From Warburgia ugandensis (lineage: Eukaryota > Streptophyta > Magnoliopsida > Canellales > Canellaceae), in assembly GCA_035236585.1 (NCBI GenBank), contig CP141128.1, positions 32,842,684 to 32,906,683 on the forward strand: 64,000 nucleotides of DNA. The letters are read 5' to 3'. Under the pieces are notes generated by a model. The model ran no database searches and had not been told where the DNA came from. It was given only the letters and a program-made list of their open reading frames with translations. Positions 25,863 to 56,051 of the stretch are shown here, in pieces. Positions within the stretch are counted from its first letter, which is position 1, and every line of letters begins with the position of its first letter. Position numbers and translations under genes: made by a program.

Positions 25863-26052
25863 CCACAGGGTCAAGTTAGGGTTCTATATGCTTAATTTTA
25901 AATGAATATGTGTGTGTCACAAAATATTGTAGAAAGTCTCCTAAAGAAATAAAAATATGTGATAACCAAAGAAGTACAAAAACTGTTGTAAAAAAAAAAA
26001 CATTAAGCAAAATAAGATTGTAAATTAATTATGAGGTGCTACTATGAGTTTG

Positions 26053-29000
26053 TGAAATGACTTGGGTTTTTGTAATACAATTTTCAAAGGCAGGGCACCC
26101 TTAGTAGTATTTTTTTTTTGCAAAACAAAGCAGTGGAAATTCTTTTCTTTAAAACTTGTTTTGAAAAACGCAAGTCATCACTTCATACATAATATAAGTA
26201 GAATTTTGTACAAGATAAAATTCCATTGAAGGAATATACTTTTATTAAATTTCAGAATCCATCTAATAGTTCACAGTACAGCTCGGGCATTAGTACAATA
26301 CTTGTCCAAATTACATAATCGAAATTTCAAACCTCACCATACATTAAAAACTCTCAATATAATACAATGCTCTCAAATATAAAAAAATTACATGTCGTCG
26401 AGGCTTATACCCTGATTAATTATTCTTCCAAATCTTCTTAAGTCTTCAGCTCCTAATCCTCCTTCTCTATTTCTGAGATATTGTAAACATTGAAACATTT
26501 ATAATATCTTAGCAAGCTATGCTTGGTAGGGGATTCAAGAAGCATAATAATTTGACAGTATAATCCTAATACTTCATAATCCTATAGTTCATAACATACT
26601 CATTAATCAATCTCTTCACTTTGTCATATATGTATATCCTTACAAATTCATACAGTATACTGTGTATCGATAAATACATATGGTCAAAATCATGAAAAAT
26701 ATTTAATGTCTCAAAACAAAACCATATCCAGCTAATGCTGAGTTGATAAATCATCCAGACTCTGCTAAAAATACTCCCTCATTTGGGTAGTATCGGTAAT
26801 CCATGATTACCCAGCATCTCATCATGCCATAATATAATGCATTTCACTATGCCATGGATCATAATGCAAAATTACTCAAAGGACTACTACATTGTAGTCT
26901 GATCCATACCATCGTGCTCGGATAGCTGCTTTCATACTCCACAAATACCAAGTGTGGAAAATCATCTAAGTCATGTCTATCTGGGTAAACAGACTGTCAC
27001 AGTGGTGGCCTTCCCATATTGCCCCACCCAACATTTTCTCTCTTTGGGCATTGTATCATCATATATATCACATTTTGGAGAGTAGGTGGCCAAACCCTAC
27101 TACTCTCCTAACATAGCATCCCCAGGCCTATGCCTGTTTAAAATAAAACCACAAGCCTTCATGCCTGTATGTAAAGTAATCTTTTTACTTATTAGACGTC
27201 TTATCTGTTTATAAAATCATCTTCGTATTTTGGTATTCTTATACTGAAGATATGATTTAACGTCAAACAAAGGGATCATCATTTCAATGAATGATACCCA
27301 TGTTCATACAAGTTTGGGGATCATCATTCTACATGAATGATTCCCATGTATTGATTTTATACTTATCAGACAATCTATCTATTTAACTAGGGCTGGAATG
27401 CCTTCTAGTTCCCTATTCACTTAGGGTTTTCCTCATTTCAAACTTAACCGTTTCATATGTGTTCTAGTTGGATCATAAGGGTTTTCAATGAGTTTAATAC
27501 AAGTATTTACATTATACTTGTCAACATTTCCGAACATAAAATCATGTATACAACATGTACTTCTCATGTAGATGCCTTCATAAAATCCTTCTACCTTCAA
27601 GTAGTGATTCATCTCTTCAAATCTTCCATGAACCTGATTGATGTATGAAATCTGTAAATCCATACATACTGTCAATACTTAGACAATCTAGATAATCTTA
27701 TATTTTTTATCCTATCTATATTCTTTGTCTAATCTTGGCCTTTGATATAAAGGATTTAGATCTTTTATCATATCATGATCTATCTTCCTCAAATAGTTTA
27801 TAGCCTAATGATTAATAAATCTAATAGTTAGAATGATCCTCTAATCTTTTAGATCTAACTATTTTCTATTTTAAGTCTTTGTGTATTCTTTTCTTTGATC
27901 TTGGTCCTTCATAGATCCTTTGATCAACAATTTATACTTGTTGATAAAGATCAAGGGCTTAGATCTTCTATCATCTAATTCTTCTTTGATCTATGTTTAG
28001 TTGTTTGATCATCCCTGAGGTGGAGGATCTTGGTTCTCTTCCATGAATAATAATTGAACAAGGGTTTAGATCTTCTATTTGATCTAAGATCTTCTATTCT
28101 ATTTGATCTAAGTTACAATCAATATCTATATACATATATCTCATCATCAAGAAGTATTGATTTCTTTTTAATTTTTTTGATCATTCAAGATCCCATGAAT
28201 CATGTTTGATCATCCTTATCTTACTTACAATTTTTATTAGGATTAGATAGTTTACTAACCATTTATGCTATGGTTATTATTATTATTATTATTCCACTAG
28301 TTAATGTTTTACTGGTTGAAGATAACTTATTTTAGCCTATGTCTAGACAGCTCCTCTTATTTCCAATTGGCTAAGGCTTACTAGCTGAATGGGTGAACAC
28401 AAAGTGGTTACGTCAATCATCATGTAAGGAGGCATTTAGACCTCACAAACATCAAATGAAGGTAGGGGAAGAGCGAGGCTCTATTAGAAAACCCCCTTAA
28501 CCACTATGTTCAATATTCACTAGATTGACTTTAGCTCAACCTCTCATAAGGTTCCTATAAGTATGTTAACCTTAAGTACTCTTTCTAATTGATTTTAATT
28601 AAGTCCATGAACATTTAAAAATGTCATTCATGGGGTTTATTTTTCTCCTAGTTGGGGCCAACAATTTAATAATCCTTATATTTTCCTACTAACTATAGCC
28701 CTTACTAATATTAAGTCCAAGTCATTCACTCATCTTAATTGTCCATGAATCTCTATTTCATTAGATTTTACTTTTGATGATTTATGTATATTGAGACATA
28801 ACCACTAATTAAACAATTATATCTACCAACTTAAAGACAATTAAGATGCTTATACTATACTTTGACAATTCAAATAATCATACACTTTAAATCATAAGAG
28901 AATTGTACATCCATATCATTCTAAGGACATTCATACTCTAATATACTAACATGGATCCTAAGTTATAAAATACATGAAATTTTACTACTAATCTAATGGA

Positions 29001-31074
29001 ATCATGCTTAAACTTCAAATTTAAACTAACATGGCCCTAATATAATTAAATCTATCAACCTAATATAACAATCTAATAACACATAGAACATAGCATGCTA
29101 AAATTTAAGAACTATCATGCTTCATAACATAAATCACATTTACAATACTAATATCAAATAAAAGACAATGAAACTAATTAGATTAAGATTATTAGAAACC
29201 TTTACTTACAATCCAACCATTAGATCTTAGATCTTTTCCTTTTAAATCAAGGTTTTAATTAATTTTAGGGCTTTTATCCATTAAGGTCCATGATCATATT
29301 CCTTTGTTTTTGGTCATATTCAATCCATGATTTCAATGGATTCCAATATAATATCATCCATTCAATCCATCCCAAGAGTCAGATCATACTTGATCTTATT
29401 GATCAAGCAAGTCCCTTTGTTTTTTTAGGGATTTTCTACTATAAAGGGTAAATCCCTCAATTTATCTTAGATATGTCCAAATAAATCATGGATGTCACTT
29501 GATTTCAACATTATATCATCAGTAAATCAAATCCCCAAGATCTGATCATCTCAAATCTTGAAGATCATGAAAATTAGAAACTTAAATCATGAAAACAAAA
29601 AGTTTCTAGAAGGTTTTTTTTATCAATATTATGGTTTTAGAAGAAAATAATGGTTATGAGCTTTCCGTAGCTTCTTTTCGATCTCAATTTGGAGTTTCAA
29701 TGACTCCACACTTGAACTATGAAGTTCACAATCATTCCCAAGGTCCAGATTTGATATGGGCCCGATTGAAGGGTTGCTACGCGCCCATCATCGAGATGCA
29801 TGAGTGACGTGCTCCAACAGGACTGGCAATGTCCCACGGCCATTCAGCCAAAACAGCGTTGCACACGGCGCGCATGCGTGGAAATGGTCCCGCAAGGCGC
29901 ACTTCCTTATGGCATTTCAAAATTCAATAAAAATTCTTGAAATTTCTACACTAGGGGTTTTGGACCCTTCTTGATCGATTGGATGGCTCAGATTTTTCAT
30001 CTGAGCCCTCTGTCATCCAGAATTGAAGGGTTTTGGTCCTTACTTTATTTTTATAAATTTCAACCTAAAACTAATTTCAAAAAAATAAAAATAAAATAAA
30101 ATAAGATGAAATAAGTATAAGAAGTGTTCCCACCTACCTGATTGGAGAAAGAATGTAGATTTGAAGCCCAATTTGAAATAAATATCCTTTGATGATAAGA
30201 TAGCCCGATAGTCGCTTATTTTGTGATTTTTCGTTGATTGCACCATTGGATCTTGAAATTAATTTGGGGGTTTTGTATATTAGGTAGTCTAAGATTGTAT
30301 GGATGGTGGGATTTATGAGATTCAATTTGGAACAGAGTGCCTAATTGAATTTAGGTTTCTTATTCCAATTAAAATGAGAAGAGAGAAAGTGCAAGAAGGG
30401 AGATTTTTGGGAGTTTTGGAATTTTGGGAATGAATGTAGATTTGGTATTTTAGGTTAAGCAAGAAGATTTCATGGGAATTTTAAGGAACATTTTTGGAGG
30501 TATATTTATAGTTGTTTTTGAAGTTTTCATAATTACTTGTAATAATCATGTCTCAATTCTTTTAAATATTAAATTAACATTGGATCCTCCACTACCACCT
30601 CATTCTCCACTAGCAATTGGTAGTGGTTTGACCAATCATTACATGGTTTTTGCCCAATGGATTCATTTGTTGGCCCCACGGAGGTGTGAAAGGACCATTT
30701 TGCCCTTTTATGGAGAAAAATCCTTTTTATTCTCCCAAACTCAGAATCGAGCGTACTTAATGACGTTGGATTTATATTTCTGAGTACTTTCTCAATATTG
30801 ATGTCCCAGATCTTAGTTATTGGTAAAATTACCATTTTACCTTTTATTCATAAAAATAAAGAAAATTAGGGATTTTTCATTTTAACTCAGAATTGAACAT
30901 ACTAGTGTCATTTCAATTGATTTTTCAAGTACATTCATAATTTCTAAGTTTGAAATTATTTTTTAATCTTTATAAAATAGAATTTCCAATAAACTAATAT
31001 TCCAACCCAAAATTTCTGAAAATTCAAACTAAATTGATTTTCTTCATCAATTTACAAAAATTAGGGTTATTACA
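26053..31074 (-). mobile_element. Family 1 LTR (a), outer left LTR of the triple-LTR tandem
   Basis: The plus strand starts TGAAATGACTTGG and ends GGGTTATTACA, 5022 bp. The left flank GTTTG (26048-26052) pairs with GTGTG (56007-56011) at the far end of the tandem. On its right are a polypurine tract and the conserved GAGGACGAAATT motif (minus strand), so in element sense this is the 3' LTR. It matches 33732-41644 over its length, apart from the insertion in the latter. A (TTA)n tract lies near 28273-28293. Confidence 0.9.
30503..30510 (-). promoter_or_regulatory. TATA box of LTR (a)
   Basis: The minus strand reads TATAAATA, about 565 bp inside the sense start of the LTR at 31074. A splice-donor-like CAGGTAGGTG lies at 30131-30140 on the same strand. 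Confidence 0.6.
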
Positions 31075-31109
31075 ATCTTTCCCCTTATAATAATTTCGTC
31101 CTCGAAATT
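31075..31109 (-). other. Polypurine tract and GAGGACGAAATT motif, internal copy 1
   Basis: The minus strand has AAGGGGAAAGAT directly next to the LTR start (plus 31075-31086), preceded by AATTTCGAGGACGAAATT (31092-31109). A GAGGACGAA block just before a G-rich polypurine tract is typical of the 3' end of Tekay/Del-type plant Ty3/gypsy elements. The priming role is established for such tracts; lineage is inferred. Confidence 0.7.
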
Positions 31110-31515
31110 CGCATTTCAACTCACTTAATAGTTTTCATTAACTCATTCATGAGTTTGCTCATGTGGCCTTGCCACTTAAGGAAACCTCCATTTCCTTTCA
31201 TTCATAGTTCATATCACCTTCTCTTTCAAAGGAAAAATTACATTTTTGGGTCTTAAATGCACATCTTACTAATAATGCTACTGGATTAATCACTTACGCT
31301 AATTCTTTGCTGGACCTCTTAAAAGGATTAATAACTCTCAATTGATTTATCCCTTTTTCTTCAAAATTCTCTATTTCTAATATCTATTTGCTGAGAGATT
31401 TATGTTCTATTTTTCCTATGAAGGTTTAAGTGATTTCATCTATTTCAAATCTCCAACCTTCCAATGATAGTTTTATGCAAATTCATAGTAAGGAAAATTT
31501 ATTGTTCTAGTATCC
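31110..31515 (-). other. 3' noncoding part of internal copy 1
   Basis: This lies between the truncated protease start and the polypurine tract. In autonomous relatives the polymerase would come before this point; here about 0.4 kb of AT-rich sequence follows directly. The equivalent stretch in copy 2 is 41680-42079. Confidence 0.55.
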
Positions 31516-32779
31516 TCAATCAAATAATACTTTTGCATTATTATAAGTGATAAACAAAGTACCCTTCATCTTTCCTTAGGACAATTGACCTTCTGTAATA
31601 GCAAATAGCCTCCCTTGGTGTCGAGGGACATTTCTTGGTTTATCATCGTTGATTGCCAAAGGTTTGTTGCAGTGATCGGCCATATGCCCCAACTCTCCAC
31701 ACTTATAACATTTGACTAGGGGTCTTTATTGTGGTGGCCATTGATTGTAACATGGTCTTCTAGGATGAAATCTTTTACATCTAAGACATGGTTTCTAATT
31801 CTATCCAATTGTAGGATTTCCTTGATTTCTTTGTGACCTAAAGTTGTTCATGAGTCCTTTGCTTTTCTTAAAAGGTTGTGGATTGAAGTCTCCCACTCCT
31901 CTTTTCTCACTTTGTTTTTTCTTAAACTCTTCTTCAAATCTTGAGCCCATTTCCATACATTCTGCCAAGGTCGTGGGTTTAGTACAAAGTACCTTTACTT
32001 TCAATCCTAGGTTCAGCCCTTCTATGAATCGATTTACTGTGTAACTCAGTGTTACATACATGAGTCCTAAATCTCCTTAACTATGTAAATTTATTATTGT
32101 ATTCTACCACTGACATGTTTCCTTGTCTAAGTTTTAGAAACTCTATTAGCTTTCTTGCTTGTACATGACAAGGGAAATATTTTTGGTTGAAGACTTCCTT
32201 AAATTCCTCCCACGTAGTATTTTCAGAATTTGAGAAGAAGGTATTATTAGCTGATCTCCACCAAAATGCAGCTTCTTGTTTTAATAGATAGGTGGCAAAT
32301 TTAACCTTCAACTTTGGGGGGTATGTAGTGTACTAAAAGTCCTTTCTAGTTTATATATCCATTCCTGAGCCTTCTCAGCTTCTCCCATGCAATGATACCT
32401 TAGCCATCTTTTGAAACCTTTCCATCATTTTGTTAACCTTTTCTAGGGCTAATGGGGAATTTCTAACTTCTTCACGTGGTACAAGGGAAGATTGACCCTG
32501 TACCAGTGTGGGAGCATTTGGTGTTGGAGTTGGTGTATTGTGTCTCACTTCAGGCTAAGCTTCATCCTGAGTACTTGGTACCTCTACTGGAGGTGATGAA
32601 CTTTGGGGCTGTTGAATGTAAGGAAGAAGGTTCCTCAATACTCTTGTTACCATCTCTTCCACATTATTCATTGTTACTCCCTCCATATTATCTTCTGGAG
32701 TACTTTGAGCCGTCTGCCTTGTGACTGTCTTTGGCTTCCTCTGTTCATAAACCAAAATACCTATCAGTATTTCATACAA
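31516..32779 (-). pseudogene. Decayed Ty3/gypsy gag with truncated protease start, internal copy 1
   Basis: The N-terminal part is at 32555-32779 (about 74 codons, with VEEMVTRVLRNLLP). The capsid core at 32081-32311 has AAFWWRSANN and EFKEVFNQKYFP, matching the retrotransposon gag family, and continues at 31801-32061 (RFIEGLNLGLK). A nucleocapsid zinc knuckle CYKCGELGHMADHC (C-X2-C-X4-H-X4-C) lies at 31669-31710. It is followed by GTLFI..NNAKVLFD, the usual lead-in to the aspartic protease, then a stop at 31516-31518 before the catalytic DTG/DSG. Gag packages retroelement RNA. Frameshifts and stops separate the parts, so it is dead. No reverse transcriptase, RNase H or integrase follows. Confidence 0.85.
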
Positions 32780-33716
32780 GTACTTCTATCATATAAGTAG
32801 AATCAATATCTCTAAATTCATCATATTAATATCCCTGTTCATGTATAGGTCTTCACTTTCCATTCTATCATCAATGCAATTTATAATCCATAATTATTTC
32901 CATATTTCAATTCTATCATATAGTTGAGTCAATATTCCTCTAAATTTTATCTCCTTATTTATCTTTATTAAAACTCTTCTCATTCAACAATTTTGAAAAT
33001 ATGCACCTATCTCCTTAAATTCTTCTCAAATAAGATCATCTCTATTTTGATGATTAAATTCTTTAGCTAACTGTCATAATACTACATCTATGTAGTAACT
33101 GTAACTCTTACATTTATATTTATTATTTATTATTATTATTAATTTTGAATTTTGTATTAATTCTAAGGTTATTAACTTTAGTATCTATTTCATATTTCCT
33201 ATAAAGGTTGGATTTTATCCTTCTTCTTTCTTTCCATCGTATTTTTCCAATTTATCATCTCCTTATCTTAATCTCCATTATTTCACCTAATAATAGTTAT
33301 ATTAATGTATTTTATTTCTACAAGTATCTTTACGTAAGATTTTAGGTTACACCTGAATATCATACATTACATCTTCCTCTATTCTAAGGTTTTCCATACT
33401 TGTTTCTAAACTTAATATTCCCTATATTAATATCATTAACTTATTAAGTAGTACTTCTAGTTATTTTACTAAGTACTATCTACTTATACTCCATTATTAC
33501 TTCATGAGTTAATTACATTAACTCTTCGCCTAATGAGTTAATAATCATATCTCTACCTATATTCATTCTCAACTAATGAGTTAATTACATAACTCATTCT
33601 CTACTCATTCTCATCAAATACTATCTTATTTATTATTCACTCACTATTTCTCATCCCCTAATTGGATTGTCATCTTCACATTGGACATAAGGGTACCATA
33701 CTATGACTGGATGAAT
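32780..33716 (-). other. 5' leader of internal copy 1, noncoding
   Basis: AT-rich sequence between primer site and gag with no open frame of note. It contains GAGTTAAT-TAC-ATTAACTC (33506-33524), an 8-bp inverted repeat that in the sister copy is the insertion point of the family 2 element at 44076. Confidence 0.6.
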
Positions 33717-33729
33717 GGCTCTGAGACCA
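33717..33729 (-). other. Primer-binding site, initiator tRNA-Met, internal copy 1
   Basis: The minus strand reads TGGTCTCAGAGCC, one mismatch from TGGTATCAGAGCC, the standard plant initiator tRNA-Met site. Two bases separate it from LTR (b) at 33732. Confidence 0.8.
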
Positions 33730-34685
33730 ACTAAAACAACTTGAGTTATTGAAACACATTTTGTAATACATTTTTCAAAGGTAGGTGCCCTTAGTACAAT
33801 ACTTGTCCAATTTACGTAATCCAAATTTCAAACCTCACAATACATTAAAAACTCTAAATACAGTACAATGCTCTCAAATAAAAATAAAAATACATGTCTT
33901 CAAGGGATATTCCCTGATTGATTATTCTACCAAATCTTCTTATGTTTTGAGCTCTTAATCCTCCTTCTCTATTTCTAAGATATTGTAAACATTGAAACAT
34001 TTACAATATCTCACAAGCTATGCTTGGTAGGGGATTCAAGAAGAATAATAATTTAATAGTATAATCCTAATACTTCATAACATATTCATGAATCAATCTC
34101 TTTACTTTGTCATATATGCACATCCTTACACATTCATCCAGTATACTGTGTATAGATATATACATACAGTCAAAACCGTGAAAAATAGATAATGTCTCAA
34201 AACATAATCATATTCAGCTTATGCTGAGTTGATAAATCATCCACACTCTGTTGGAAATACTCCCTCATTTGAGTAGTATCGATAATCCAAGATTACCTAG
34301 CATCTCATCATGCCATATCATAAGGCATTTCACTATGCAATTGTAATGCCTCATATTTTGAAGCCCTTTTGTAAAAATGGTTTATTTTGTTAATAAAAAA
34401 TATAAACACAAAGGAATTTATGAGAAAAATCTGTATCATCAGATTCTACACTTAAAATGGAATCCAACACCTCAAAGAACACCAAAAACGGAGTTCATAT
34501 GACCAAGTTATGGGCATTTGAAGATGTGGGACATTTCTGTAATTTAAATGAAAACGAGAATGGCCTGAAAACACAGGGAGTTGTTTTACTAACGGCACCC
34601 CCAGGTCATCTTCTTCCTCCAGCCACCGCCTTTCCAGCATTGCCTCTATAAGGCGGCAACAATGGTGGGACCGCCTTCATGAGGC

Positions 34686-34692
34686 TATAAAG
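34686..34692 (+). promoter_or_regulatory. TATA box of the nested family 2 solo LTR
   Basis: TATAAAG about 345 bp after the LTR start. The donor-like site at 34995-35002 follows 309 bp later, as in the copy at 7134-9906. Confidence 0.45.
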
Positions 34693-35999
34693 CTTGCGTC
34701 CCCCTCTTCCTCGATCATCTTCTTCACCTCTTTCTCTGGCTGCCTTGATCCAAAATCCAACAGTTAGGGTTCCAGCAAAAATAAAAAAAACCCTCCATTG
34801 GTTTTCCCTGTAAAGATTGGCAATGGCCAGTCCTGTCCTCAGGCCGGCCATTCCCCTTCCTTCTCTTTTCCCCCTTCTTCCTCTGGTCTCACCAGACATT
34901 AGGGTTTTTCTCTGCTTCCTATTTTTCGGCGAGTAGGGGTTTCAGACTGGAGAATAGGCGCACTCACTGGCAATGGTCACACTCCTAGGCTGCCCAGGTA
35001 AGCCTCACTCCTTCTCTCTTATTCCCCTCTCCTTCCCAGCCCAGATCCATCCCAGATCTAGATGTTTTCTTGGCTGGAAGGCATTAGCACGGCATCGGTC
35101 CTAAACCAGACGGGCTGAAACCCATCAAAGACAGTGACCTAGGGGGAGCACGGGCATGACGCGCGCCTGTGACAAGCTCCCTGGGGTAACTATTGCAAGC
35201 GCGCCACGTGCAGTGGATTCCTGACTTGACCGGGATGCATGGGGCATCCTGGGAGCCGAGGGGCACCCCGCCTGCACCAAAGACGCATCTGCACGACACC
35301 AGCTAAGACGCACATCATAGTGTCGATTAAGCATGCGTGCGCATGCAACGCGGTCCCTGGTGTGGCCTTCGGGCATGCGTGATGTGTGGGTGCTGGTCCT
35401 GGTCGACCAAGGGCACGCACCACATCCTGGGAACCGTGACGCATGGGCCCTAAATGGATGATCTGGTTCATCCATGACTTTGTGACACTAAATATGCAAT
35501 TATGGAGGCTGTAGGACTCTGATTGACGATTCAAAAGAACCATTGTGTCTGTAGTAACGACGCGGACCTAATGAGATGATAAAACTTAGGATCATAGGAT
35601 TATTTAGTATAACTATAGCCTAAGAACTTTAAATATCTTTGAGATCTAGCCTAGAAGCATGCTAAGCAAGGGCCTATAGATCTTAAAAGGCAGATTTAAC
35701 CATTAATCAATAAGTCTAAGTGATGACCCATAAAGGTTGGAAAATAATACTTGAATCCATGTTATTAATGAATATCCAGGGTTTCACTAAGATGGGTCAG
35801 AGTCGAATAATGAAGAACATGATTTAAGGAACATTGAGGTAGGTAGTCTAATACTACTATGTTTTTAATACATTTCCAAATGTACTTGATTTATTGATCT
35901 TCTATTGTCGAGTTGTTTTCATAATATATGGTCTTGAATGTGATCATTTGCATTGAGATGATTTTATGAATGCATTGCTCACATACTTTAGAATGGATG

Positions 36000-36275
36000 G
36001 CATAAATTGCATGAATTAAAACAATTGCATTGCTTATCCTCGAGGGTTGCCAAAAGACACTGGAGTGCCCAAAAGACACTGGTTAAGCAGTTGTGAGGGC
36101 CAGGCAGTGTGAGGGACCCAAAGGGGACATTGAAAATGATTGCATAAATTGCATGATTTACGATGAATAAGTGCATAAATTGCATGATTTGCAATTATTG
36201 CGATTCGGATAAAAGCATAATCTTGAGGGTTACCAAAAGACACTGGTGAGGTAGTGTGAGGGACCCAAAGAGGAC
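36000..36275 (+). repeat. Partially duplicated module in the family 2 solo LTR
   Basis: GCATAAATTGCATGA followed by GAGGGTTGCCAAAAGACACTGG-like and GTGTGAGGGACCCAAAG-like blocks occurs at 36000-36135 and again at 36174-36275. Other family 2 copies have one such module on their antisense side (8140-8235, 45270-45350). Confidence 0.75.
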
Positions 36276-39200
36276 ATGATTTTTATATTTTACAGGTTGA
36301 TAAGCCTGGTGGGCACTATGCTAAAAGGAGGTACGGGGTTGGCCTCCCGGCCTCTACCACCAAAAGGGTGGATGGTATCACTGTCAAAAAGGCATTGTCC
36401 CTTCCCTGACTACTGTGGTAAACAGGGACGACCACTGGAGGTGTTCATGGCACCCTTTCGGGGACATCCATAGTCGCCATGGAGGCTATTGTGGATTCCA
36501 GTTGTATACTGAGTATGAGTGTAGTGGCCCTATGATTTCGATGTGATTGATATGAATATAGCATTGAGATGGCCGCATACTAGTACTCGTGACCAGTTGG
36601 CATGACGTGTACGCTGAGAGACTCATGTGCATGGTACTAGCATTTGCTTGAATGATGACTATTTTAAGAGTTTCATCATTAGTATATTTGACTCGCTGGT
36701 TTGATGCATTTGCCGAGATCTTCGTATATGGATCTATTGATTTCTATTTTAGTCATATTTATATGACGTGATTTGCATATGGATTCCATGATTTAAATTG
36801 CATCAATAAGCTTATGTTTTATGCATAACTATGCATGCTTACACGAAAGGAATCACTGATGTTTTTCATTAAAAAGCTCTTGGAACCATGCATGATGCAT
36901 ATCGTGTTTCCAAAATAGTAGTATCAGATCACCTACTGGGTATGAAAAATACTCACCCAAATCTATTATTTTTCCATATTAGCTCCACACAAGGATAGAA
37001 GAAGCATTAGGAAAAGTTAGTACTACTATCAAGTAAATCAAGAAGGAACAAGCATGAATGTAAGTAAACACTCTACCTTTTGGACATGTATCTGTACTTA
37101 TTTACAGTTGGGCTGTGAGCTATGATTGGATAGACTTGGGAATCCATTTATGAATTTTGAAATTTTCAAAACTACTTTGTTGTGGAAGCAAATGACACTT
37201 GGGGTTTTCAAAACGAGTTTAAAACAAAAAGATTTTTCCGCTGCATTGCATTGTTTTCTAAAAATGTTTTCAAATAGGGATCCCGCCTTAGGCATTATTT
37301 TTGCATTTAAAAATGCATGCGAAAACCCAAGTCGTCATAGCAATGCATCATAATGCAAAAATACTCAAAGGACTACTATGCTGCAGTCTAATCCGTACCG
37401 GCACGCTTGGATAACTGCTTTCATACTCCATGGATACCATGTGTGGAAAATCATCTATTTCATATCTATATGGGTTGATAGATTGTCATAGTGGTGGCCT
37501 TCCCACATTGCCCCACCTGACATTTTGCCTCTCTTTGGGCACGGTACCATCATATATATCACATTTCAGAGAGTGGGTGGCCAAACCCTACTACTCTCCT
37601 AGCATAGCATCCCCAGGCCGATGCCTACTTAAAACAAAACCACAAGCCTCCATGCTTGCATGTAAAGTAATCTTTTTACTTATCAGATTTCTTGTCTGTT
37701 TATATAATCATCTTTGTATTTTGGTATTCTTATACTAAGGATAGAATTTTACTTCAAACTTAAGGATCATCATTTAATATGAATGATACCCATGTTCATA
37801 CAAGTTTAGGGATCACCATTCTATATGAATGATTCCCTTGTATTGATTTTATACTTATCAGACAATTTGTCTTTTTATCTAAGGTTGGAATACCTTCTAG
37901 TTCCCTATGCACTTAGGGTTTCCTCATTTCTAAATTCACCATTTAATATGTGTTTTGGTTGGATGGTAAGGGTTTTCATGGGTTTAATATAAGTATTTAC
38001 ATTATACTTATCAGCATTTTCAAACATAAGATCATATATACAACACGTACTTCTCAAGTAGATGCCTTCATAAAATCCTCCTACCTTCAAGTAGTGATTC
38101 ATCTCTTCAAATCTTCCATGATCCTAATTGATGTATGAAATCTGTAAATCCATACATACTGTCAATATTTATACAATCTAAATAATCCTATATTTTTATC
38201 CTATCTATATTCTTTGTCTAATCTTGTCCTTTGATATAAAGGATCTAGATCTTTTGTCCTATCATGATCTATCTTCCTCAAATAGTGTCTATCCTATTGA
38301 TCAATAGATTAGACGATTAGAATGATCTTCTAATCTTTCAGATCTAAGGATTTTCTATTCTAACCCTTTGTGTATTCCTTTCTTTGATCTTGATCTTTCA
38401 TAGATCCTTTGATCAACAATTTATACTTGTTGATAAAGATCAAGGGCTTAGAGCTTCTATCATTTAGTTCTTCTTTGATCTTAGTTTAGTTGTTTGATCA
38501 TCCCTAAGGAGGATGATCTTGGTTCTCTTCCTTGAATCATAATTGATTAAGGGTTCAGATCTTCTATTGGATCTATGATCTTCTATTTTATTTGATCTAA
38601 GTTGCAAACAATATCTATATATAGATATATCATCATCAAGAAGTATTGATTTCTTTTTATTGTTTTTGATCATTCATGATCCCATGGATCATGTTTGATC
38701 ATCCTTATCTTAATTACAATTTTTATTATGATTAGATAATTACTAACCATTTATGCTCTTATTGTTGTTATTCAACTAGTTAATGTTTTACTAGTTGAAG
38801 ACAACTTATTTCAACCTAAGTCTAGACTGCTCCTCTTATTTCCAATTGGCTAAGGCTTACTAACTGAATGGGTGAACACAAAGTGGTTACTCCAATCCTC
38901 ATGTAAGGAGGCATTTAGACCTCACAAATGTCAACAGAAGATAGGGAAAGAGCGAGGCACTATTAGAAAACCCCCTTAACCACTATGTTCAACATTCACT
39001 AGATTGACCTTAGCTCAACCTTTAATAAGGTTCCTATGAGCATGTTAACCCTAAGGACTCTTTTTAATTAATTTTATTTAAGTCCATGAACATTTAAAAG
39101 GTCATTCATGGGGTTTATTATTCTCCTAGTTTCCTACTAACTATAGCCCTCACTAATATTAAGTCCAAGTCATTTACTCATCTTAATTGTCCATGAATCT

Positions 39201-41087: not shown

Positions 41088-41095
41088 TATTTATA
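41088..41095 (-). promoter_or_regulatory. TATA box of LTR (b)
   Basis: The minus strand reads TATAAATA, in line with the other family 1 copies. The downstream donor-like site near 40695-40705 has decayed to TAAGTAGGTG but keeps the GT. Confidence 0.6.
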
Positions 41096-41644: not shown

Positions 41645-41679
41645 ATCTTCCCCCTTATAATAATTTCGTCCTCGAAATT
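41645..41679 (-). other. Polypurine tract and GAGGACGAAATT motif, internal copy 2
   Basis: The minus strand has AAGGGGGAAGAT adjacent to LTR (b) (plus 41645-41656), preceded by the same GAGGACGAAATT block as copy 1. Confidence 0.7.
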
Positions 41680-45070: not shown

Positions 45071-45200
45071 CCTAGAAGCCTAACAGCCTAGAAGCCTGCC
45101 AGCCTAGAAGCCTGCCAGCCTAGAAGCCTTGTCAGCTCTCTCTGGGCCGCCCTCATCGGCCCGCCTTCGTCGGCCCGCCCTCATCAGCCCGCCCTCATTG
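45071..45200 (+). repeat. Two adjacent short tandem arrays in the family 2 LTR
   Basis: Four units of about 16 bp (CCTAGAAGCCTGCCAG type, 45071-45135), then about four 14-bp units (GCCCGCCCTCATCG type, about 45143-45200). The other LTR has the same arrays at about 51160-51313, with an extra 23-24 bp duplication at 51212-51257. Confidence 0.85.
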
Positions 45201-46483
45201 GTCAAGGTTACGTTTATCATGCAACCTATGCATGTAGCACATGTCTTGGCAATACATGCACAATGTATTTTTCAAAACCTGTCCTCTTTGGGTTCCTCAC
45301 AACTGCCTGGCCCTCGGCACTCCAGCGTCTTTTGGCAACCCTCAAGGACTTGCAATCTTTGCAAGTACTTAAATCATGCAATGCATGCACTTGTTTGCAA
45401 CACATGTATGTGCATAATGTATATGCAGGCATTCCAAAACATGGCTATTTACAAAGCATTTAATATGCATGCTGAATTTATTCATACAAATCACATGCAA
45501 ATCAAGTCATATATCCAAAACATATGTTCTCAAATAACAATAGTTCTTTTAAAAGAATCTAATAGTGATAGAGCACCTACCTGACTAGGTCGTGTTAATC
45601 CTCTTATCCTCGTACGCTCCTGAACATGGTTTGGGGACTCAAGGTTAGTTTAACCTATCTTTGATGGGTTTAGAGCAGTTGGCTCTCATTACTTTGGAAT
45701 TAGGGGTCCATCCCTATGCCTATGGGTGTCCCAAGGTCCTAATTTGGCCTTGGTATTCTCAGTTTTCCAAAGTTCTAGTGGTCACGCGCCACCATCCTAT
45801 TCTAAGGGTCATGCCCACCTTTTATTGGGCCCTGATCAGAGATTTTATCATTTGGATGTGTCCGTGTCGTCGATACGGACACAACGCCTTTTGCAGCACC
45901 TCAATCGGAGCTCTAGATCTCAAGTTATAAGCATTTTAACATTGTATGTACATATAGTCTTAAAGACAAAAATACGGAATGCTAGGGCGCTGCGCATCTG
46001 CGACGTGCGCCCTAGCTTCCTTAAGGAACCAAATTAATCCGTGCGCTAGCGCGCGCCTCAATGGGCACGTCTGCAGATGCTCTAGAATCTCCACCCGTCT
46101 TCATCTTTAGCGGGCGCGTCCACGGACGCGCTCGTTGGTTCCCTCTTCAGACGCGTTCGACGCGTCTCGTCTGGAGTGGCCGTCTCCGTCGTTGGGGGAC
46201 CGAGGCGTCCTTGGGATGCCCTGGTTCATCCCTGAGGAACCCGTGCGGCCCTGGGGACGTCCCAGGGTCCTTGGTGGCTCCCTAGAGGCCTATTCTCTAT
46301 GGTTTTTCATGAAAAAACCTAGGGAAACCAAGCCTAGGACTGTGGGTGAGATGGGTTTGGGGTTTTTTTGTGCGTACCTGCTTCGTGGTGGGTTTTCTCT
46401 CCACGTTTTCCCCCCTTGCTCACTGCTTCACGACTGGTTTTCTCCAAGGCTTTTGGGCTGCCATTAGAGGCACCCAAGAGCTC

Positions 46484-46491
46484 TATTTATA
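46484..46491 (-). promoter_or_regulatory. TATA box of the left family 2 LTR
   Basis: The minus strand reads TATAAATA within the palindrome CTCTATTTATAGAG. A donor-like CAGGTACG follows on the minus strand at 46373-46380. The copy in the right LTR is at 52612-52619. Confidence 0.6.
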
Positions 46492-46909
46492 GAGCTTTTA
46501 CAGAGGGTTCTGGAGGGTTTCTAACCGCCTTTGAATGGCGGTGGGGAACCCTCTGGAATGGCGGTGGTTTCTTCTTGAAACACTGCCGTTCCAAAAACCT
46601 CTAGGAGGTTGAAGACGACGGGGTGCCCGTATCAAAACGGGCACCTGTGTTTTTCAGGTTAAATCGTTTTTGGGAAATTTACAATTTTGCCCCTGAACTC
46701 TGAAGGGCCATATCTTGCTCATTTTAACTCCGTTTTGGGTGATTTTGGTCTCGTTGGATTCCTTTTTCTGAGACGGATCTAATGGAACCACTTTTGGTAC
46801 CAAATTCCTGGGTTTAGTCAAGGTGACTAGTGAAATGACCAAAATGCCCTTATCTTTAAAACTGAACTTTTTATGGGCTTTTAATATTACAAAATTTGGG
46901 GTCATTACA

Positions 46910-49900
46910 TTATTACCCCCTTAAAAGAATTTCGTCCTCAAAATTCCATAACTTATTATCTTCCAAGTATTTGTCTCTTAGATGATTTCTTGGTGGATGC
47001 ATTCTCCCCTTCAGGATCAAATCTAGGTTCATCCTCAATTTATTATTTCGATTGTTCCTCCTATAAGGCCTCACCTATAAGAGATGCTTTTGCTGCGTAC
47101 TCTGATGCCCCTCCATACTCTCATACGTGCCAATTTAACAATACCGTTTTCTAGCGGTATTTCATCCATCTTGAATTCCTTAGATCCCTATACTTATCTT
47201 ATCATGTATAAGATAGTCTCCTCGTAAGATCATGCTTCTTTGCTCATGCATATACTTCTTTCAAGATCATATTAGCTTATTCCTCCTATTTTGAATATCA
47301 TAAGATAATCCTTTTCATCTAGTGATCTCTTTCATTATCCACAAGTCCAAAAAGTTACCTTCTTTCTATTGTGTCTAATTTTGCTTCTTGCCCTTGTTTC
47401 CAAGATACTTTAATAACTGATATGGTATCATTTGCTCTATAGTCAAACTCTTACTTAACTTTGAATTTCAACTGTCTGTTGTTTTGCATACACGACTCAA
47501 GGTTATATTCAAAATGAAATCATGAAAGCCAATTAGTACCATCTTCCATCACTAATACTACCTCATATTACAATTAGGACATTCAAACTGTTCCTCAAGT
47601 TTCATAGATGCTGAAGTCATCAAATGCTTTTTCTTCTTGAAGAGTTTATGCATACTCATATCAAATATATCATGGTCCATTGTTCTCTTCTAGAGGCCTA
47701 TCTCACTATTCACATCAACTTGTTATTAGGAGTGTTAATAATGTTCCTATTTATGCAAGCAAAGAGTCTCTTATTCATCACCGGATACCCTTACTAGGTC
47801 ATGGTTGAATCCTTTGTCATCATCCTTTTTGTCCTTTCTCTGCTTGATGGTTTTCTTCTTTACCTTCTAGTTCAAGAGTTCTATATTCAATCCAATAAGG
47901 TTAGTCCTTAAGAAATTCCTTTAATTAATTTTTCGTACTTGGTATATGCTAACTTTTTGTCTAAAGGCAAGTAACATCACATCACCTTATAGTGTGCTAG
48001 CCTCCTCAACTTTTCTCTTTTCATTCCTTATGTCAATATATTGCCCAATCTTTTATTAAGGCTTTATCATCAACCATGCAGTTTGTATTGTCAGGAGGTA
48101 TCATCATAAGTAGTGATTTTCTCAATTCCTCAACTTTTATCTTTCAAGTGCCTCCTTATTTTATCTTTCAAGTGCCATCTCACAGCCATAATTCTCCCCC
48201 AATAGCAATTATATCAAATTGTACTGAAGTTGTTAACTCAACAAGTTCAACAAGACTTAGATAAGCATAAACATTTCCTTAGACATAGAAAGACTTTAAT
48301 CGATTACTTATTGATCTCTTCCCAGATGCGTTATAAGCTCAAGGGCCTCTAGAGTGATCAGTACTTATCTTTCTTTCAATCCAAGTCTGTAGTAGATTTC
48401 AGACCTAAAGTAATTTTTTCACCTTGTCATGGTAGCCATTAAGGTTTGAAAATCCTTTCACCTTGGTTTAGATCACTTCTTATTTTTGCTCCTATCTCAG
48501 TTGTTACTGTATTTATTGTACTTATAGCTCCTCCATGATGTGGCCTAATCAACTGGCCTTATACCTTCAAATGACTTAGCCTCAAGTCTAAAGACTTATA
48601 ACATCCTTCTGAGTATATAACTTCAACTACTAACTCATAGGCATTAACATACCTGATTAATTAGGGTGGGATGCCTCTATTTAGCTGACAATACTTAATG
48701 ATGGTCTTAAGATATTTGGTCTTCCAATTGATGATAGCAAGACCTTTATTGATCATTGATGGTACTCTTCTTGCTAAATGGATAAGTTACTGTCCTGGCC
48801 TATTTCCTTTTTCAATATAACTTTATTTACTCATATAGTGGCAAGGTGAGATACCACCAAATTTTCTTTTTATGGATTATATTCATTGGTGTTCCTCATA
48901 CGCTAATGGATCTGATAAGAATCTAATTGATATCAAACCATTTGTAAAAGTTTAACTTCTAGTTGGTCGCCATTCTTCTTTGAAAATTTCTTGTCACATA
49001 ATCTCCTGAAATTCGATACTCTACTCAAAATCTTAATCCCCATATGCTTTCTCTCTTTTCTACTCTTTTTGCAATAAGATCACCAACTCATCTATCATCA
49101 TTCCTTTGCATTTGTTTGATCTTCCTTTCTATGGGATTCTATGTATCTCCATGAAGTCATGATCTTCTTCTTTGAATATTCCATATTCATCGAATACTTA
49201 TAGTTACATCTCTATCTCTTTCTCTCTTTTCTTCAATATCCATTTGGTCTACCTGGATCAATGTCTCCATATGCTTTTGTTGCATATGATCGATACTTCA
49301 TCTATTACTTTACGTAACAGATATGATAAACTGAATGCTTCTCAGAAATTCTAAACTGTCTTAAAATGCATACAATGTCTTAATAATGGCTTTGATGTTT
49401 CGGTCATATTAGGATCAATCTATTATCATCCTTAGGATGATCATCAAATCTTTTGATAACTCGGTCGAATTCATTCTCTTATCATATTCGTGTTATGTTC
49501 CTCTTATTCACATAATCTGTTACTTGCATACCTCTTCTGATTTGCTTCATAATACTCAAGTAATTATTATTCAATAGCATTTCACTCTTCATAAAACTCT
49601 AATTAAGGTATTGAGCTATACCTTTGTGATATAGTATGAGTCACTGTTATCCCCTAGTATCATTTTGCATTCTCATCGCTCTTATCATTATCAAAATCAT
49701 CTCAAAGTCTGTCTTTTAAATCCCTTATACTTATCTCATATCCCTTGATACTCTTTATGATGGAAAGATATCCACCTACGTCCTTCAATTTTCTCACCTT
49801 TGATGAGATTACTTTATTCCCGATCAACTCTATCTTCTAACAAGTCCTTTAATCATCTTCATTCATTCATTCTCATCATCCATATATGAGTTTTCACATT

Positions 49901-50149
49901 TGCATCACTGCACAACAATTCTTATTTCCTATAATTTTGATAGGATTCAAGCAATCCAATATCTAAGTATTTGCTAGGATTATCTCCTTTTTCACCTATG
50001 TGTTTATGGTGAAATGTCTCGAGTCATATTATAATCCTCGAATAGAAGTAGTCATCTCTACTACTCCTATTTATACTACTTATCCTTGATTTTCTTTATT
50101 GTTCATGACCCTTGGACATGCTGGACTGGCTGTGAAAGGATAGAACCTG
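46910..50149 (-). mobile_element. Noncoding internal region of the family 2 (LARD-like) element
   Basis: With the primer site and 2-base spacer up to 50164, the internal region is 3255 bp and lies between two LTRs. Next to the left LTR is a polypurine-type tract (minus strand TTTTAAGGGGGTAATAA, 46910-46926), preceded by GAGGACGAAATT (46928-46939). The rest is AT-rich and pyrimidine-rich on the plus strand. I found no gag, zinc knuckle, protease, reverse transcriptase or integrase on either strand; the longest open frames are about 60 codons. Long LTRs around a noncoding internal region fit the LARD class, which depends on proteins of an autonomous relative. Confidence 0.85.
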
Positions 50150-50162
50150 GGCTCTGATACCA
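50150..50162 (-). other. Primer-binding site, initiator tRNA-Met, family 2 element
   Basis: The minus strand reads TGGTATCAGAGCC, a perfect 13-base match to the 3' end of plant initiator tRNA-Met. Two bases separate it from the LTR at 50165. It fixes the element's orientation as minus. Confidence 0.93.
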
Positions 50163-50164
50163 AC

Positions 50165-53037
50165 TGTGACGACCCGGGTTTTCTCATGCATTTTTAAATG
50201 CAATGTCTAATTTCCTAAGGCGGGATGCATCCCTATTTGAAAACCATTTTATAAAAACCATGCAATGCAGCGGAAATCCTTTATTTTTAAACTCATTTTT
50301 GAAAACCCCGAGTGTCATTTGCTTTCACAACAACTAAGTTAGTTTTTGAAAAACTTCAAAAATCATAAATGTTTTTCCCTAGGCCTTTCCAGTCACAATG
50401 CACAGCCCATCTGTAACTAAGTACAAACACATGTCCAAAGGGTTGAGAGTTTACTTACATGTATATTTGTTTCCTTTTGGATTCACTTGCTCATAGCACT
50501 AACATAGATGTCCTCTTTGGGAGTGGAGTTGTCCTGAACCATGATATATATACGGACGTATCCTGTCCATGAGTGCTTACTGATATCTGAAAAATGTTGA
50601 GGATTGGGTGAGTATATAATATACTCAGTAGGGCCTATCACTACTAGTTTTATAAATGCATGAGATGTTTCAAAATCATATGCTCATTCAAAACATGCGT
50701 ATGTTTGAATACTCGAGTTCAATATTAGTATAAGAATCCATAATCAATTTCAAAATATGCGTATGTTTGAATACTCGAGTTCGATATCAGTATAAGAATC
50801 CATAATTAACTGAAATTCTCATAACTTAAAAGATCACATAATTCCAAAAGTGAAAGTATCATATATCTGATGACATCATGATATGCAATAGATGCCTAAT
50901 GGAGTCCAACTCATGGACCCCTAATATGGTATGGTCGACCAACCTCATATCATGCTACATGAAATGCACATCAAACCATAGGGTCCACTATGCCCACGGC
51001 CTCCTCGCCGTGTGGTCCCGGGTACCTGAGGACACTTGGTCATAGCCTCCACGGGGCCTATGACACTTCATTCGTCGTAAATCATGCAATTTTTGAAATC
51101 AGTTGCAAAACATGCATGAATCTGCTCATGCTAGTATTGCATTCAAAGTCATAACCCTGCCTTGAAGCCTGACAGCCTAGAAGCCTGCCAGCCTAGAAGC
51201 CTGCCAGCCTAGAAGCCTTGTCAGCTCTCTCCTAGAAGCCTTGTCAGCTCTCTCTGGCCCGCCCTCATCGGCCCACCCTCGTCTGCCCACCCTCATCAGC
51301 CCGCCCTCATCGGTCAAGGTTACGCTTATCATGCAACCTATGCATGTAGCACATGTCTTGGCAATACATGCACAATGTATTTTTCAAAACCTGTCCTCTT
51401 TGGGTTCCTCACAACTGCCTGGCCCTCGGCACTCCAGCGTCTTTTGGCAACCCTCAAGGACATGCAATCTTTGCAAGTACTTAAATCATGCAATGCATGC
51501 ACTTGTTTGCAACACATGTATGTGCATAATGTATATGCAGTCATTCCAAAACATGGCTATTTACAAAGCATTTAATATGCATGCTGAATTTATTCATACA
51601 AATCACATGCAAATCAAGTCATATATCCAAAACATATGTTCTCAAATAACAATAGTTCCTTTAAAAGAATCTAATAGTGATAGAGCACCTACCTGACTAG
51701 GTCGCGTTAATCCTCTTATCCTCGTACGCTCCTGAACATGGTTTGGGGACTCAAGGTTAGTTTAACCTATCTTTGATGGGTTTAGAGCAGTTGGGTCTCA
51801 TTACTTAGGCATTAGGGGTCCATCCCTATGCCTATGGGTGTCCCAAGGTCCTAATTTAGCCTTGGTATTCTCAGTTTTCCAAAGTTCTAGTGGTCACGCG
51901 CCACCATCCTATTCTAAGGGTCATGCTCACCTTTTATTGGGCCCTGATCAGAGATTTTATCATATGGATGTGTCCGTGTCGTCGATACAGACACAACTCC
52001 TTTTGCGGCGCCTCAATCGAAGCTCTAGATCTCAAGTTATAAGCATTTTAACATTGTATGTACATATAGTCTTAAAGACAAAAATACGGAATGCTAGGGC
52101 GCTGCGCGTCTGCGACGTGCGCCCTAGCTTCCTTAAGGAACCAAATTAATCCGTGCACTAGCGCGCTGCGTGTCTGCGTCGCGCCTCAACGGGCACGTCT
52201 GCAGACACGCTAGAATCTCCGCCCGTCTTCCTCTTTAGCGGGAGCATCCACGGACGCGCTCGTTGGTTCCCTCTTCAGACGCGTTTGACGCGTCTCGTCT
52301 GGAGTGGCCGTCTCCGTCGTTGGGGGACCGGGGCGTCCTTGGGATGCCCTGGTTCGTCCCTGAGGAACCCGTGCGGCCCTGGGGACATCCCAGGGTCCTT
52401 GGTGGCTCCCTAGAGGCCTATTCTCTATGGTTTTTCATGAAAAAACCTAGGGAAACCGAGCCTAGGACTGTGGGTGAGATGGGTTTGGGGTTTTTTTGTG
52501 CGTACCTGCTTCGTGGTGGGTTTTCTCTCCACGTTTTCCCCCCTTGCTCACTGCTTCATGACTGGTTTTCTCCAAGGCTTTTGGGCTGCCATTAGAGGCA
52601 CCCAAGAGCTCTATTTATAGAGCTTTTACAGAGGGTTCTGGAGGGTTTCTAACCGCCTTTGAATGGCGGTGGGGAACCCTCTGGAATGGCGGTGGTTTCT
52701 TCTTGAAACGCTGCCATTCCAGAAACCTCTAGGAGGTTGAAGACGACGGGGTGCCCGTATCAAAACGGGCACCTGTGTTTTTCAGGTTAAATCGTTTTTG
52801 GGAAATTTACAGTTTTGCCCCTGAACTCCAAAGGGCCATATCTTGCTCATTTTAACTCCGTTTTGGGTGATTTTGGTCTCGTTGGATTCCTTTTTCTGAG
52901 ACGGATCTAATGGAACCAATTTTGGTACCAAATTCCTGGGTTTAGTCAAGGTGACTCGTGAAATGACCAAAATGCCCTTATCTTTAAAACTGAACTTTTT
53001 ATGGGCTTTTAATATTACAAAATTTGGGGTCATTACA
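50165..53037 (-). mobile_element. Right (5') LTR of the complete family 2 element
   Basis: 2873 bp, TGTGACGACCCGGG to GGGGTCATTACA on the plus strand, followed by the duplication GTTAA (53038-53042). It is longer than its partner mainly through a 23-24 bp duplication near 51212-51257 and about 17 extra bases in the CpG-rich block near 52160-52180. The TATA box is at 52612-52619 and the donor-like CAGGTACG at 52501-52508, both minus strand. Confidence 0.95.
52612..52619 (-). promoter_or_regulatory. TATA box of the 5' LTR driving the family 2 element
   Basis: The minus strand reads TATAAATA. As this is the 5' LTR in element sense, this is the promoter expected to make the genomic RNA. Confidence 0.6.
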
Positions 53038-53246
53038 GTTAATTACATTAACTCCTCACCTAATGAGTTAATAATCATAACTCTTCCTATACTCATTCTC
53101 AACCAATGAGTTAATCACATAACTCATTCCCTATACATTCTCATAAAATACTAGCATGTTTCTTATTCACTCACTATTTCTCATCGTCCAAATGGATTGT
53201 CATCTTCATATTGGACATAAGGGTATTGTACTATGACTGGATGAAC
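53038..53246 (-). other. 5' leader of internal copy 2, right part
   Basis: It continues the leader broken at 44075. It matches 33508-33716 in copy 1 (TTACATTAACTC, TAATGAGTTAATAATCAT, GGACATAAGGGTA blocks). Confidence 0.8.
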
Positions 53247-53259
53247 GGCCCTAAGACCA
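53247..53259 (-). other. Primer-binding site, initiator tRNA-Met, internal copy 2 (decayed)
   Basis: The minus strand reads TGGTCTTAGGGCC, three mismatches from TGGTATCAGAGCC, two bases from LTR (c) at 53262. Confidence 0.7.
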
Positions 53260-53261
53260 AC

Positions 53262-56006
53262 TGAAATGACCTCGGTTTTTCTAACACATTTTGTAATACA
53301 TTTTTCAATGGCATGGCACCCTTAGTAGTAAAAAAAATTCAGGAAACAAAGCAACAGAAATTCTTTTCTTTAAAACTTATTTTGAAAACTCCAAGTCATC
53401 ACTTCATACATAATATAAATAGAATTTTGTACAAGATAAAATTCCATTGAAGGAATATACTTTTATTAAATTCCATAATCCATCTAGTGGTTCACAGTAC
53501 ATCCTAGGTATCAGTACAATACTTGTCCAAATTACATCATCCAAATTTCAAACCTCACCATGCATTAAAAACTCCCAATGCAGTACAATGTAGTCAAATA
53601 AAAATAAAAATATATGTCTTCAAGGGATATACCCTGATTGATTATTCTTCCAAATCTTCTTAAGTCTTGAGCTCCTAATCCTCCTTCTCTATTTTTGAGA
53701 TATTGTAAACATTGAAACATTTACAATATCTCAGCAAGTTATGCTTGGTAAGGGATTCAAGAAGCATAATAATTTGACAGTATAATCCTGATATTTCATA
53801 ATCCCATAGTTCATGACATACTCATGAATTAATCTCTTTACTTTGTCATATATGTACATCCTTACACATTCATATGGTATACTGTGTATAGATATATACA
53901 TATAGTGAAAATCATGAAAATTAGTTAATGTCTCAAAACATAATCATATCTAGCTTATACTGAGTTAATAAATCATCCAGACTCTGTTGGAAATACTCCC
54001 TCATTTGGGTAGTATCAGTAATCCACAATTACTCAACATCTCATCATGCCATATCATAAGGCATTTCACTATTCCATGCATCATAATGTAAAAATACTCA
54101 AAGGACTACTATGCTGCAGTCTGATCTGTACTAGCATGCCTGGATAACTACTTTCATACTCCACAGATACCAAGTGTCGAAAGTCAACTATGTCATGTCT
54201 ATATGGGTAGACAGACTATCACAGTGGTGGCCTTCCCATATTGCCCCACCCGACATTTTGCCTCTCCTTGGGTACGGTATCATCATATATATCACATTTC
54301 GGAGAGCAGGTAGCCAAACCCTACTACTCTCCTAGCATAGCATCCCTAGGCCTATGCTTGTTTAAAACAAAACCACAAGGCTCCATGCTTGTATGTAAAG
54401 TAATCTTTTTATTTATCAGATGTCTTGTCTGTTTATATAATCATCCTCGCATTTTGGTATTCTTATACTGAGGATAGGATTTTTCTTCAAACTTAGGGAT
54501 CATTAATTTGGAGTTCAGATGACTCCACAATTGAACTGTGAAGTTGACAATCATTCTTAGGGTCTAGATTTGTTCTGGGCCCAGTGGAACGGACGGCTCA
54601 AATCAATCGGGCAAAAGGGTCGGGTCGAACGGTCACCTCGCGCTCATCACCAGGCTGCAAGCGTGACGCACTCCCCCGGGATCGACACTGTCGCATGGCC
54701 GTTTGATCGGAACGGCGTCGTACGCTTTGCACACATGTGGAAATGTTCTTGCGGGCACATTTCGGTGCGGTGTTTCACAGCACATCCCGGGAGTCGATCC
54801 GATTTGAGAGATCGAATAGTTTATTTTGGTCTGTCCAATCAATCCTCTTTAATTTAGGGATTAAAACTTATTAAAAATTCTTAAAATTTCTCCAATAGGG
54901 GTTTTGAACCCTTCTAGATCAATTGGATGGCTCAGATTTTCCATTTGAGCCCTCCATCATCCACAATTGAAGGGTTATGGTCCTTACTTTATTTTTATAA
55001 ATTTTAGCCTAAAACTAATTTCAAAAAAATAAAAATGACATGAAGTAAGTATAAGAAGTGTTCCCACCTACTTGATTAGAGAAACAATGTTGATTTGAAG
55101 CCCAATTGGATGTAAATACCCTTTGATGATAAGATAGCCCGATAATCGCTTGTTTGTGATTTTTCGTTGATTGCACCATTGGATCTTGAAATTGATTTGG
55201 GGGTTTTGTATATTAGGTAGTCCAAGATTTTATGGATGGTGGGATTTGTGAGATTCAATTTTGAACAGAGTGCCTAATTGAATTTAGGTCTCTTGTTCCA
55301 CTTAGAGAGAGAAGAGAGAAAGTGCAAGAAGGGAGATTTTTGGGTGTTTTGGAATTTTGGAAACGAATCTAGATCTGGTTATTTAGAGTAAGTAAGATGA
55401 TTTCATGAGAATTTTAAGGAACATTTTTGGAGAATTTTTGGAGGTGTATTTAGAGATGTTTTCGAATTTTTCATAATTACTTGTAATAATCATGTTTCAA
55501 TTCTTTTAAATATTAAATTAACATTGGATTCTCCACTACCACCTCCTTCTCCACTAACAGCTGGTAGTGGTTTGACAATTCATTTCATGTTTCCTAGCTG
55601 TTGGATTCATTTGCAGGCCACACGGGAGTGTGAAAGGACCATTTTGCCCTTTTATGGAGAAAAATCCATTTTATTCTCCCGAACTCAAAATTGAGGGTAC
55701 TTAGTGGTGTTGGATTCATATTTCTGAGTACTTTCTAAATATTGATGTCTTAGATATCATTTAAGTGTAAAATTATCATTTTACCCTTTTATACATAAAA
55801 ATAATGAAAATTAGGGATTTTTCATTTTAACTCAAAATTGCACATACTGTCATTTTGATTGGTTTTTCGAATAAAGTCATAATTTTTGAGTTTTAAATTA
55901 TGTTTTAATCTCTATATCTGGCCCAAATTTTCTAAAAATTCAAACTAAAATTTCTAAAAGTTCAAACTAAATTTATTTTCAATTTACAAAAATTGGGGTT
56001 ATTATA
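53262..56006 (-). mobile_element. Family 1 LTR (c), outer right LTR with a large internal deletion
   Basis: It starts TGAAATGACCTCGG and ends GGGGTTATTATA, 2745 bp. Sequence up to about 54504 matches LTR (b) to about 37770, then jumps to the equivalent of about 40125, a loss of about 2.35 kb. The right flank GTGTG (56007-56011) pairs with GTTTG at 26048-26052. In element sense this is the 5' LTR. Its TATA position (near 55446) has decayed to TCTAAATA and the donor-like site near 55071 reads CAAGTAGGTG. Confidence 0.88.
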
Positions 56007-56049
56007 GTGTGTTAGCTTAAATTTTCCTATCCATTTCATGAGCTATAGG

Positions 56050-56051
<2 letters not shown>

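Follow-up and report, generated by a model that had tools for sequence, protein, structure and literature searches.

An old tandem LTR retrotransposon in Warburgia ugandensis, with evidence for a single landing and candidate routes to its doubling

Tandem LTR retrotransposons are common in plants, with cases in rice, Arabidopsis, almond and cotton, and gypsy elements, as well as the Tekay lineage in rice, are over-represented among them (PMC11899658). As reported there, 80% of the rice cases have LTRs that are more than 95% identical, and 28 of 28 selected rice cases encode retrotransposon domains; section 13 of this 2025 survey leaves both origins of the plant tandems open, and the survey also describes yeast Ty5, in which cDNA joins a resident element by LTR homology (PMC11899658). 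Sabot and Schulman describe template-switch complexes in Triticeae, rice and maize (PMC1950507), and TR-GAG elements are a named kind of non-autonomous element (PMC10552921).

The locus described here lies in a 64-kb window of the W. ugandensis genome (the whole stretch of DNA analysed, G000:C3:32842684-32906683) and is a newly found, old example of a tandem arrangement already known in plants. Like the plant tandems of the survey, it has alternating LTRs and internal regions in one orientation, a shared middle LTR and one outer 5-bp duplication; unlike the rice tandems described there, its LTRs are older, differing by about 10-16%, and only broken gag was found (PMC11899658). With the template-switch complexes, as described, it shares three LTRs, two internal regions and one outer duplication, and two partly different templates are possible (PMC1950507). 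The searches covered this one genome, 1.12 Gb in 14 contigs.

Anatomy and coding content

Self-comparison of the window identified LTRs a, b and c as direct copies of one LTR of about 5 kb, which alternate with the internal regions in a single orientation, in the order LTR a, internal region 1, LTR b, internal region 2 and LTR c. The element lies on the minus strand, so that its 5' LTR is LTR c and the composite is read from c to a. Its parts are as follows.

26053..31074, minus strand: LTR a, the 3' LTR by element orientation
31075..33731, minus strand: internal region 1, 2657 bp, with broken gag, a PPT-like end at 31075 and a PBS-like end at 33731
33732..41644, minus strand: LTR b, the middle LTR, common to both units
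34342..37339, plus strand: family-2-related insert inside LTR b, with duplication GCAAT at 34337-34341 and 37340-37344
41645..53261, minus strand: internal region 2, 2431 + 219 bp on either side of a nested element
44076..53037, no strand assigned: nested complete family-2 element, with duplication GTTAA at 44071-44075 and 53038-53042
53262..56006, minus strand: LTR c, the 5' LTR by element orientation

This alternation of three LTRs with two internal regions had been proposed by a sequence-only reading, and it was confirmed, positions included, by the self-comparison together with mapping on LTR a. The two nested family 2 insertions of that reading are borne out by the duplications at their junctions, and their removal leaves internal regions of the lengths listed above, in agreement with the earlier estimates of about 2.66 and 2.65 kb. 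Mapped on LTR a, LTR b keeps both LTR ends in addition to its insert, and LTR c lacks some 2.4 kb from its middle, with nothing corresponding to LTR-a positions 1228-3633. The insert in LTR b, in which both family-2 LTR ends match, is probably a solo LTR, and in the window its strand is opposite to that of the second family-2 copy; this second copy, nested in internal region 2, has LTRs that are 96.5% alike. K2P distances between the LTRs are 0.096-0.158 for a-b, 0.126-0.138 for a-c and 0.111-0.150 for b-c, and those between internal regions 1 and 2 are 0.092 (2428 sites) and 0.127 (225 sites). Since the LTRs and the internal regions have thus diverged by 9-16% (K2P), an assembly duplication is very unlikely.

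Translated from stop to stop, the internal regions yielded 38 pieces with a length of 45 aa or more, among which two pieces of unit 1 matched gag domains.

32084..32332, minus strand: gag piece of unit 1, Pfam Retrotrans_gag, E 1.2e-12
31579..31725, minus strand: gag piece of unit 1, zinc knuckle, zf-CCHC, E 3.6e-6

Among the first five pieces scanned, the two from unit 2 matched no gag family. No pol domain was found in the 15 of 38 pieces scanned in all (13 of 13 on the minus strand and 2 of 25 on the plus strand), and one of the ten later pieces matched DUF223 weakly, below the cut-off. Judged from these translations, the element is gag-only, with gag broken in both units. TR-GAG elements are defined by LTRs, PBS and PPT ends and gag, with no pol. 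The present element resembles them in its LTRs, its PBS-like and PPT-like ends and its gag, with pol absent within the 15 of 38 pieces, and differs from them in that its LTRs of about 5 kb exceed the 2.65-kb internal region; this proportion also resembles that of LARD elements.

In both units, PPT-like and PBS-like stretches abut the LTRs on the minus strand, as had been claimed earlier for the primer site and the polypurine tract. Read on that strand, each unit starts after the LTR with GTTGGTCT(C/T)AG(A/G)GCC, which we take to resemble an initiator-Met tRNA primer site; before TGTAATAACCC it closes with CGAGGACGAAATTATTATAAGGGG(A/G)AAGA, presumably a purine tract of the Del/Tekay type. The presumed placement in the Del/Tekay lineage rests on these PPT and PBS motifs, no pol having been found in the pieces scanned.

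Within the LTRs, the GC-rich stretch at 29763-29919 and its counterparts in b and c are far above average in divergence among the three, and they are rich in C/T and G/A differences, as methylated sites might give. The window also contains two inverse copies matching the LTR, d (5971-13862) and e (59371-63637).

Target site and flanking repeat

Tandem repeat units of about 585 bp flank LTR a on its left, and to the right of LTR c this repeat resumes at the same position. The repeat is dispersed genome-wide, with two units in a row at many places (40 of 1004 candidates scored). Nine distinct element-free junctions of the repeat, eight elsewhere in the genome and one in the window, align to the outer flanks of the composite; at the 5-bp site, 6 of the 9 have GTGTG and 1 has GAGTG, and in 2 the site is 4 bp longer. 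This count omits the junctions of L054, which is the same place as L052, and matches not spanning the junction; for L015, L022 and L048, no match to a junction was obtained in this comparison.

26048..26052, no strand assigned: left copy of the target duplication, GTTTG, from flank alignment to unoccupied junctions
56007..56011, no strand assigned: right copy of the target duplication, GTGTG, from flank alignment to unoccupied junctions
25469..25473, no strand assigned: paralogous target site without an element, GTGTG, in the adjacent repeat unit

Because the unoccupied paralogous junctions align, GTTTG and GTGTG are a true target duplication in which one base has since changed. Inspection of the inner LTR/internal borders revealed no 5-bp duplication, and the earlier claim of a duplication at the outer ends only is upheld. 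So is the preference for one insertion over two, since the empty paralogous sites confirm the outer target duplication; a single landing of the element is well supported.

To the right of the element, 56012-59370 holds a DNA transposon remnant on the minus strand, with a match to Transposase_21 at 58980-59225 (E 2.4e-8) and one to DUF4216, below threshold, at 57214-57456; we take the remnant to be of CACTA type. In the left part of the window, three stretches recur in order about 14-16 kb apart with 70-80% identity (2282-5226 and 16426-20895), perhaps an old local duplication.

Haplotypes of the internal regions and the LTRs

Searches of the genome gave 6670 first-look candidates for the LTR query and 1781 for the gag query, with 40 scored in each, and the LTR/internal junction pattern occurs at 1762 places with at most 3 mismatches, compared with 0 for a control pattern. 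For a panel, 31 LTR stretches were fetched by place, of which 27 gave a left LTR stretch and 19 a right one; the more distant subfamilies containing d and e were omitted from panel trees and haplotype test, and in one further count L068 and L067 were taken as one. Masking removed transition columns in CG or CHG context, which are methylation-prone. The main-group panel trees were nearly star-like, with short inner branches. The family also contributes to a satellite-like array at G000:C1:59485088-59526087 (L037, L038), where 13 of the 40 LTR matches listed fall; its unit of about 2534 bp (copies 99.2% alike) joins LTR-a positions 5022-3303 to some 0.7 kb of further sequence, and at its end stands an almost complete LTR.

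For the internal regions, one block differs in family haplotype between the two units.

31800..32600, minus strand: gag block with different family haplotypes in units 1 and 2 (counterpart 42365-43167)

In a tree of this block with seven other copies, internal region 2 grouped with a C6 copy, L069 (UFBoot 91). A sister relationship of the two internal regions was rejected (AU 0.027), and 0 of 100 simulations reached the observed difference, unmasked and masked alike. At four-way sites, internal region 1 goes with L066 at 16, with internal region 2 at 3 and with L069 at 2. Over the next 0.9 kb or so (32601-33504), internal region 1 goes with internal region 2 at 9 of 10 such sites, and a pairing of internal region 2 with L069 was rejected over the roughly 900 bp after the gag block (0/100 simulations, unmasked and masked); the haplotype switch is located between about 32157 and 33030. 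Genome-wide, internal region 1 ranked 11th in similarity to the gag block of internal region 2 among the 40 matches listed, the query itself included, and a search with internal region 1 did not return internal region 2 among the 40 matches listed. Descent of both internal regions from one ancestor thus holds over 32601-33504 and not over 31800-32600. As the gag blocks are not sister, plain duplication is insufficient, and later gene conversion or two templates would be needed. For comparison, two C6 gag regions 9.3 kb apart are 2.4% diverged and pair with UFBoot 100, the pattern expected of a later duplication. These gag regions share one orientation, and two LTR/internal junctions 8.3 kb apart lie nearby; the places concerned (G000:C6:52518517-52528612 and C6:52562924-52571249) are candidate younger tandems of the family.

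For the LTRs, crossing over predicts that b is c-like on one side and a-like on the other, that the internal regions were identical at the event, and that a, b and c form one clade. Polarised transversions gave two b+c sites and none for other pairs on the left, and five a+b, two b+c and no a+c sites on the right; under a strict filter, two b+c sites on the left and two a+b sites on the right were the only ones. The masked panel tree of the right LTR recovered a+b (UFBoot 84) with an advantage of 3.0 lnL over both a+c and b+c, for which AU was 0.108, and in two middle-LTR stretches masked data gave a+b at zero cost, with 1.1 and 1.6 shared substitutions. The masked left LTR had 0 shared substitutions for every pair (b+c UFBoot 19), transitions showed no mosaic pattern, and tree tests rejected none of the alternative a/b/c pairings. 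In an all-site haplotype test, in which some panel members differ between stretches, b was average to both a and c in every stretch, and a+c was the closest of 134 pairs on the right and average on the left (rank 166 of 251). The expectation that LTR b is a mosaic of the 5' and 3' LTRs therefore agrees with the masked right side, where a+b is favoured, and with the direction of the few polarised transversions, but the masked left side, the transitions and the all-site haplotype test do not show it. We regard LTR b as a c/a mosaic as weakly supported and not proven.

Several other signals were set aside. K2P distances and a five-taxon IQ-TREE analysis could not separate the a/b/c pairings. A transversion singleton signal of a mosaic (p 1e-4; filtered, 1.7e-4 to 9.8e-4) turned out, after outgroup polarisation, to consist mostly of uneven private changes, with 22 of 23 polarised left a-odd sites private to a; on the right, 10 of 40 c-odd sites lie inside a local duplication in c that misaligns. 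A duplication/insertion age ratio of about 0.7 from transversions was not borne out by the panel trees, and a first haplotype count, biased by sites chosen within the panel, was replaced by the all-site test.

The a+b+c clade was rejected by simulation for the unmasked left LTR (deltaL 20.3, 0/40), but not by AU, with unmasked values of 0.146 on the left and 0.494 on the right; after masking it cost 1.6 lnL on the left and 0 on the right. Separate origins for a, b and c, as suggested by unmasked trees and simulations, were dropped, the signal being gone after CG/CHG masking. The three LTRs probably share an origin and separated at insertion or very shortly afterwards. The post-insertion history common to a and b amounts to a few substitutions, so the doubling was early, and by the same token insertion as a tandem is indistinguishable from early crossing over. 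As controls, seven partner stretches of LTR pairs were fetched: L042/L060 was a usable left pair and came out as sister (UFBoot 78), L046/L063 had a right stretch only and was not sister, and the remaining 5 of 7 gave no pair at the length threshold. With so few usable control pairs, power for LTR pairs this old is poorly known. L046 and L063 (G000:C1:71732750-71742100), an internal region between two non-sister LTRs, are possibly another recombinant element.

Routes to the doubling and their meaning

The reading that we prefer, at a probability of about 0.5, is that LTR-LTR exchange at about insertion time doubled the element, in combination with a conversion tract. A gag-only Ty3/gypsy-type retrotransposon with very long LTRs landed a single time, in minus-strand orientation, its target being a GTGTG site in one copy of the repeat of about 585 bp. 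While its LTRs were still near-identical, the 5' LTR on one chromatid could have crossed over unequally with the 3' LTR on another, which would have given a second internal region and the middle LTR b that the units share. Around the same time, a gag block of about 0.8 kb in one unit, where two haplotypes are observed, may have been replaced from another family copy by conversion, and the two family-2 insertions and the deletion in LTR c later disrupted the composite. Unequal LTR-LTR crossing over had already been put forward by the sequence-only reading; the single landing and the direction of the right-LTR signal speak for it, but the gag blocks are not sister and the left LTR does not settle the matter.

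A serious competitor is the integration of a ready-made tandem, formed as concatemeric or template-switched cDNA from two different co-packaged family RNAs, as in the model of Sabot and Schulman, or from a tandem transcript. The one target duplication, the differing gag haplotypes next to a shared stretch, which is the trace expected of template switches, and the split of a, b and c at about insertion time all accord with it. The mark of template-switch complexes, as described, is that the outer LTRs are most alike (PMC1950507); here the right side of the all-site haplotype test is the only place where a and c are so paired, whereas they are not closest by K2P, rank as average on the left and yield to a+b in the masked right LTR. 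The narrower proposal that the locus is the fossil of a two-template tandem cDNA, with the haplotype mosaic of the internal regions reflecting template switches of one reverse-transcription event, we consider rather unlikely.

It is improbable that a second cDNA, from another family copy, joined the resident element via LTR homology in the manner of yeast Ty5, which would yield one target duplication and partly different unit haplotypes but for which b, once masked, shows no foreign stretch. Two independent neighbouring insertions that recombined via their proximal LTRs, with loss of the DNA between, would explain the different gag haplotypes, and same-place hits in neighbouring units of the tandem-repeat flank are conceivable, but the identical base of the unit would have to be hit twice independently, the two outer flanks together match a single target that overlaps by 5 bp, and such a recombinant would have no matching outer target duplication, contrary to what the unoccupied sites confirm; this origin is highly improbable.

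Exchange between LTRs may also have occurred elsewhere in the family. Internal sequence adjoins the LTR in only 3 of the 14 search loci showing 1.5 kb past one LTR end, which fits frequent LTR-LTR exchange, although each locus was seen on one side only. With and without CG/CHG masking, the same left-LTR data lead to opposite verdicts on a common origin (accepted when masked, rejected when unmasked), and methylation-prone transitions can thus mislead such comparisons. The locus illustrates a test of tandem origin within one genome, in which paralogous unoccupied sites point to a single landing and family haplotypes bear on whether one or two templates were involved.
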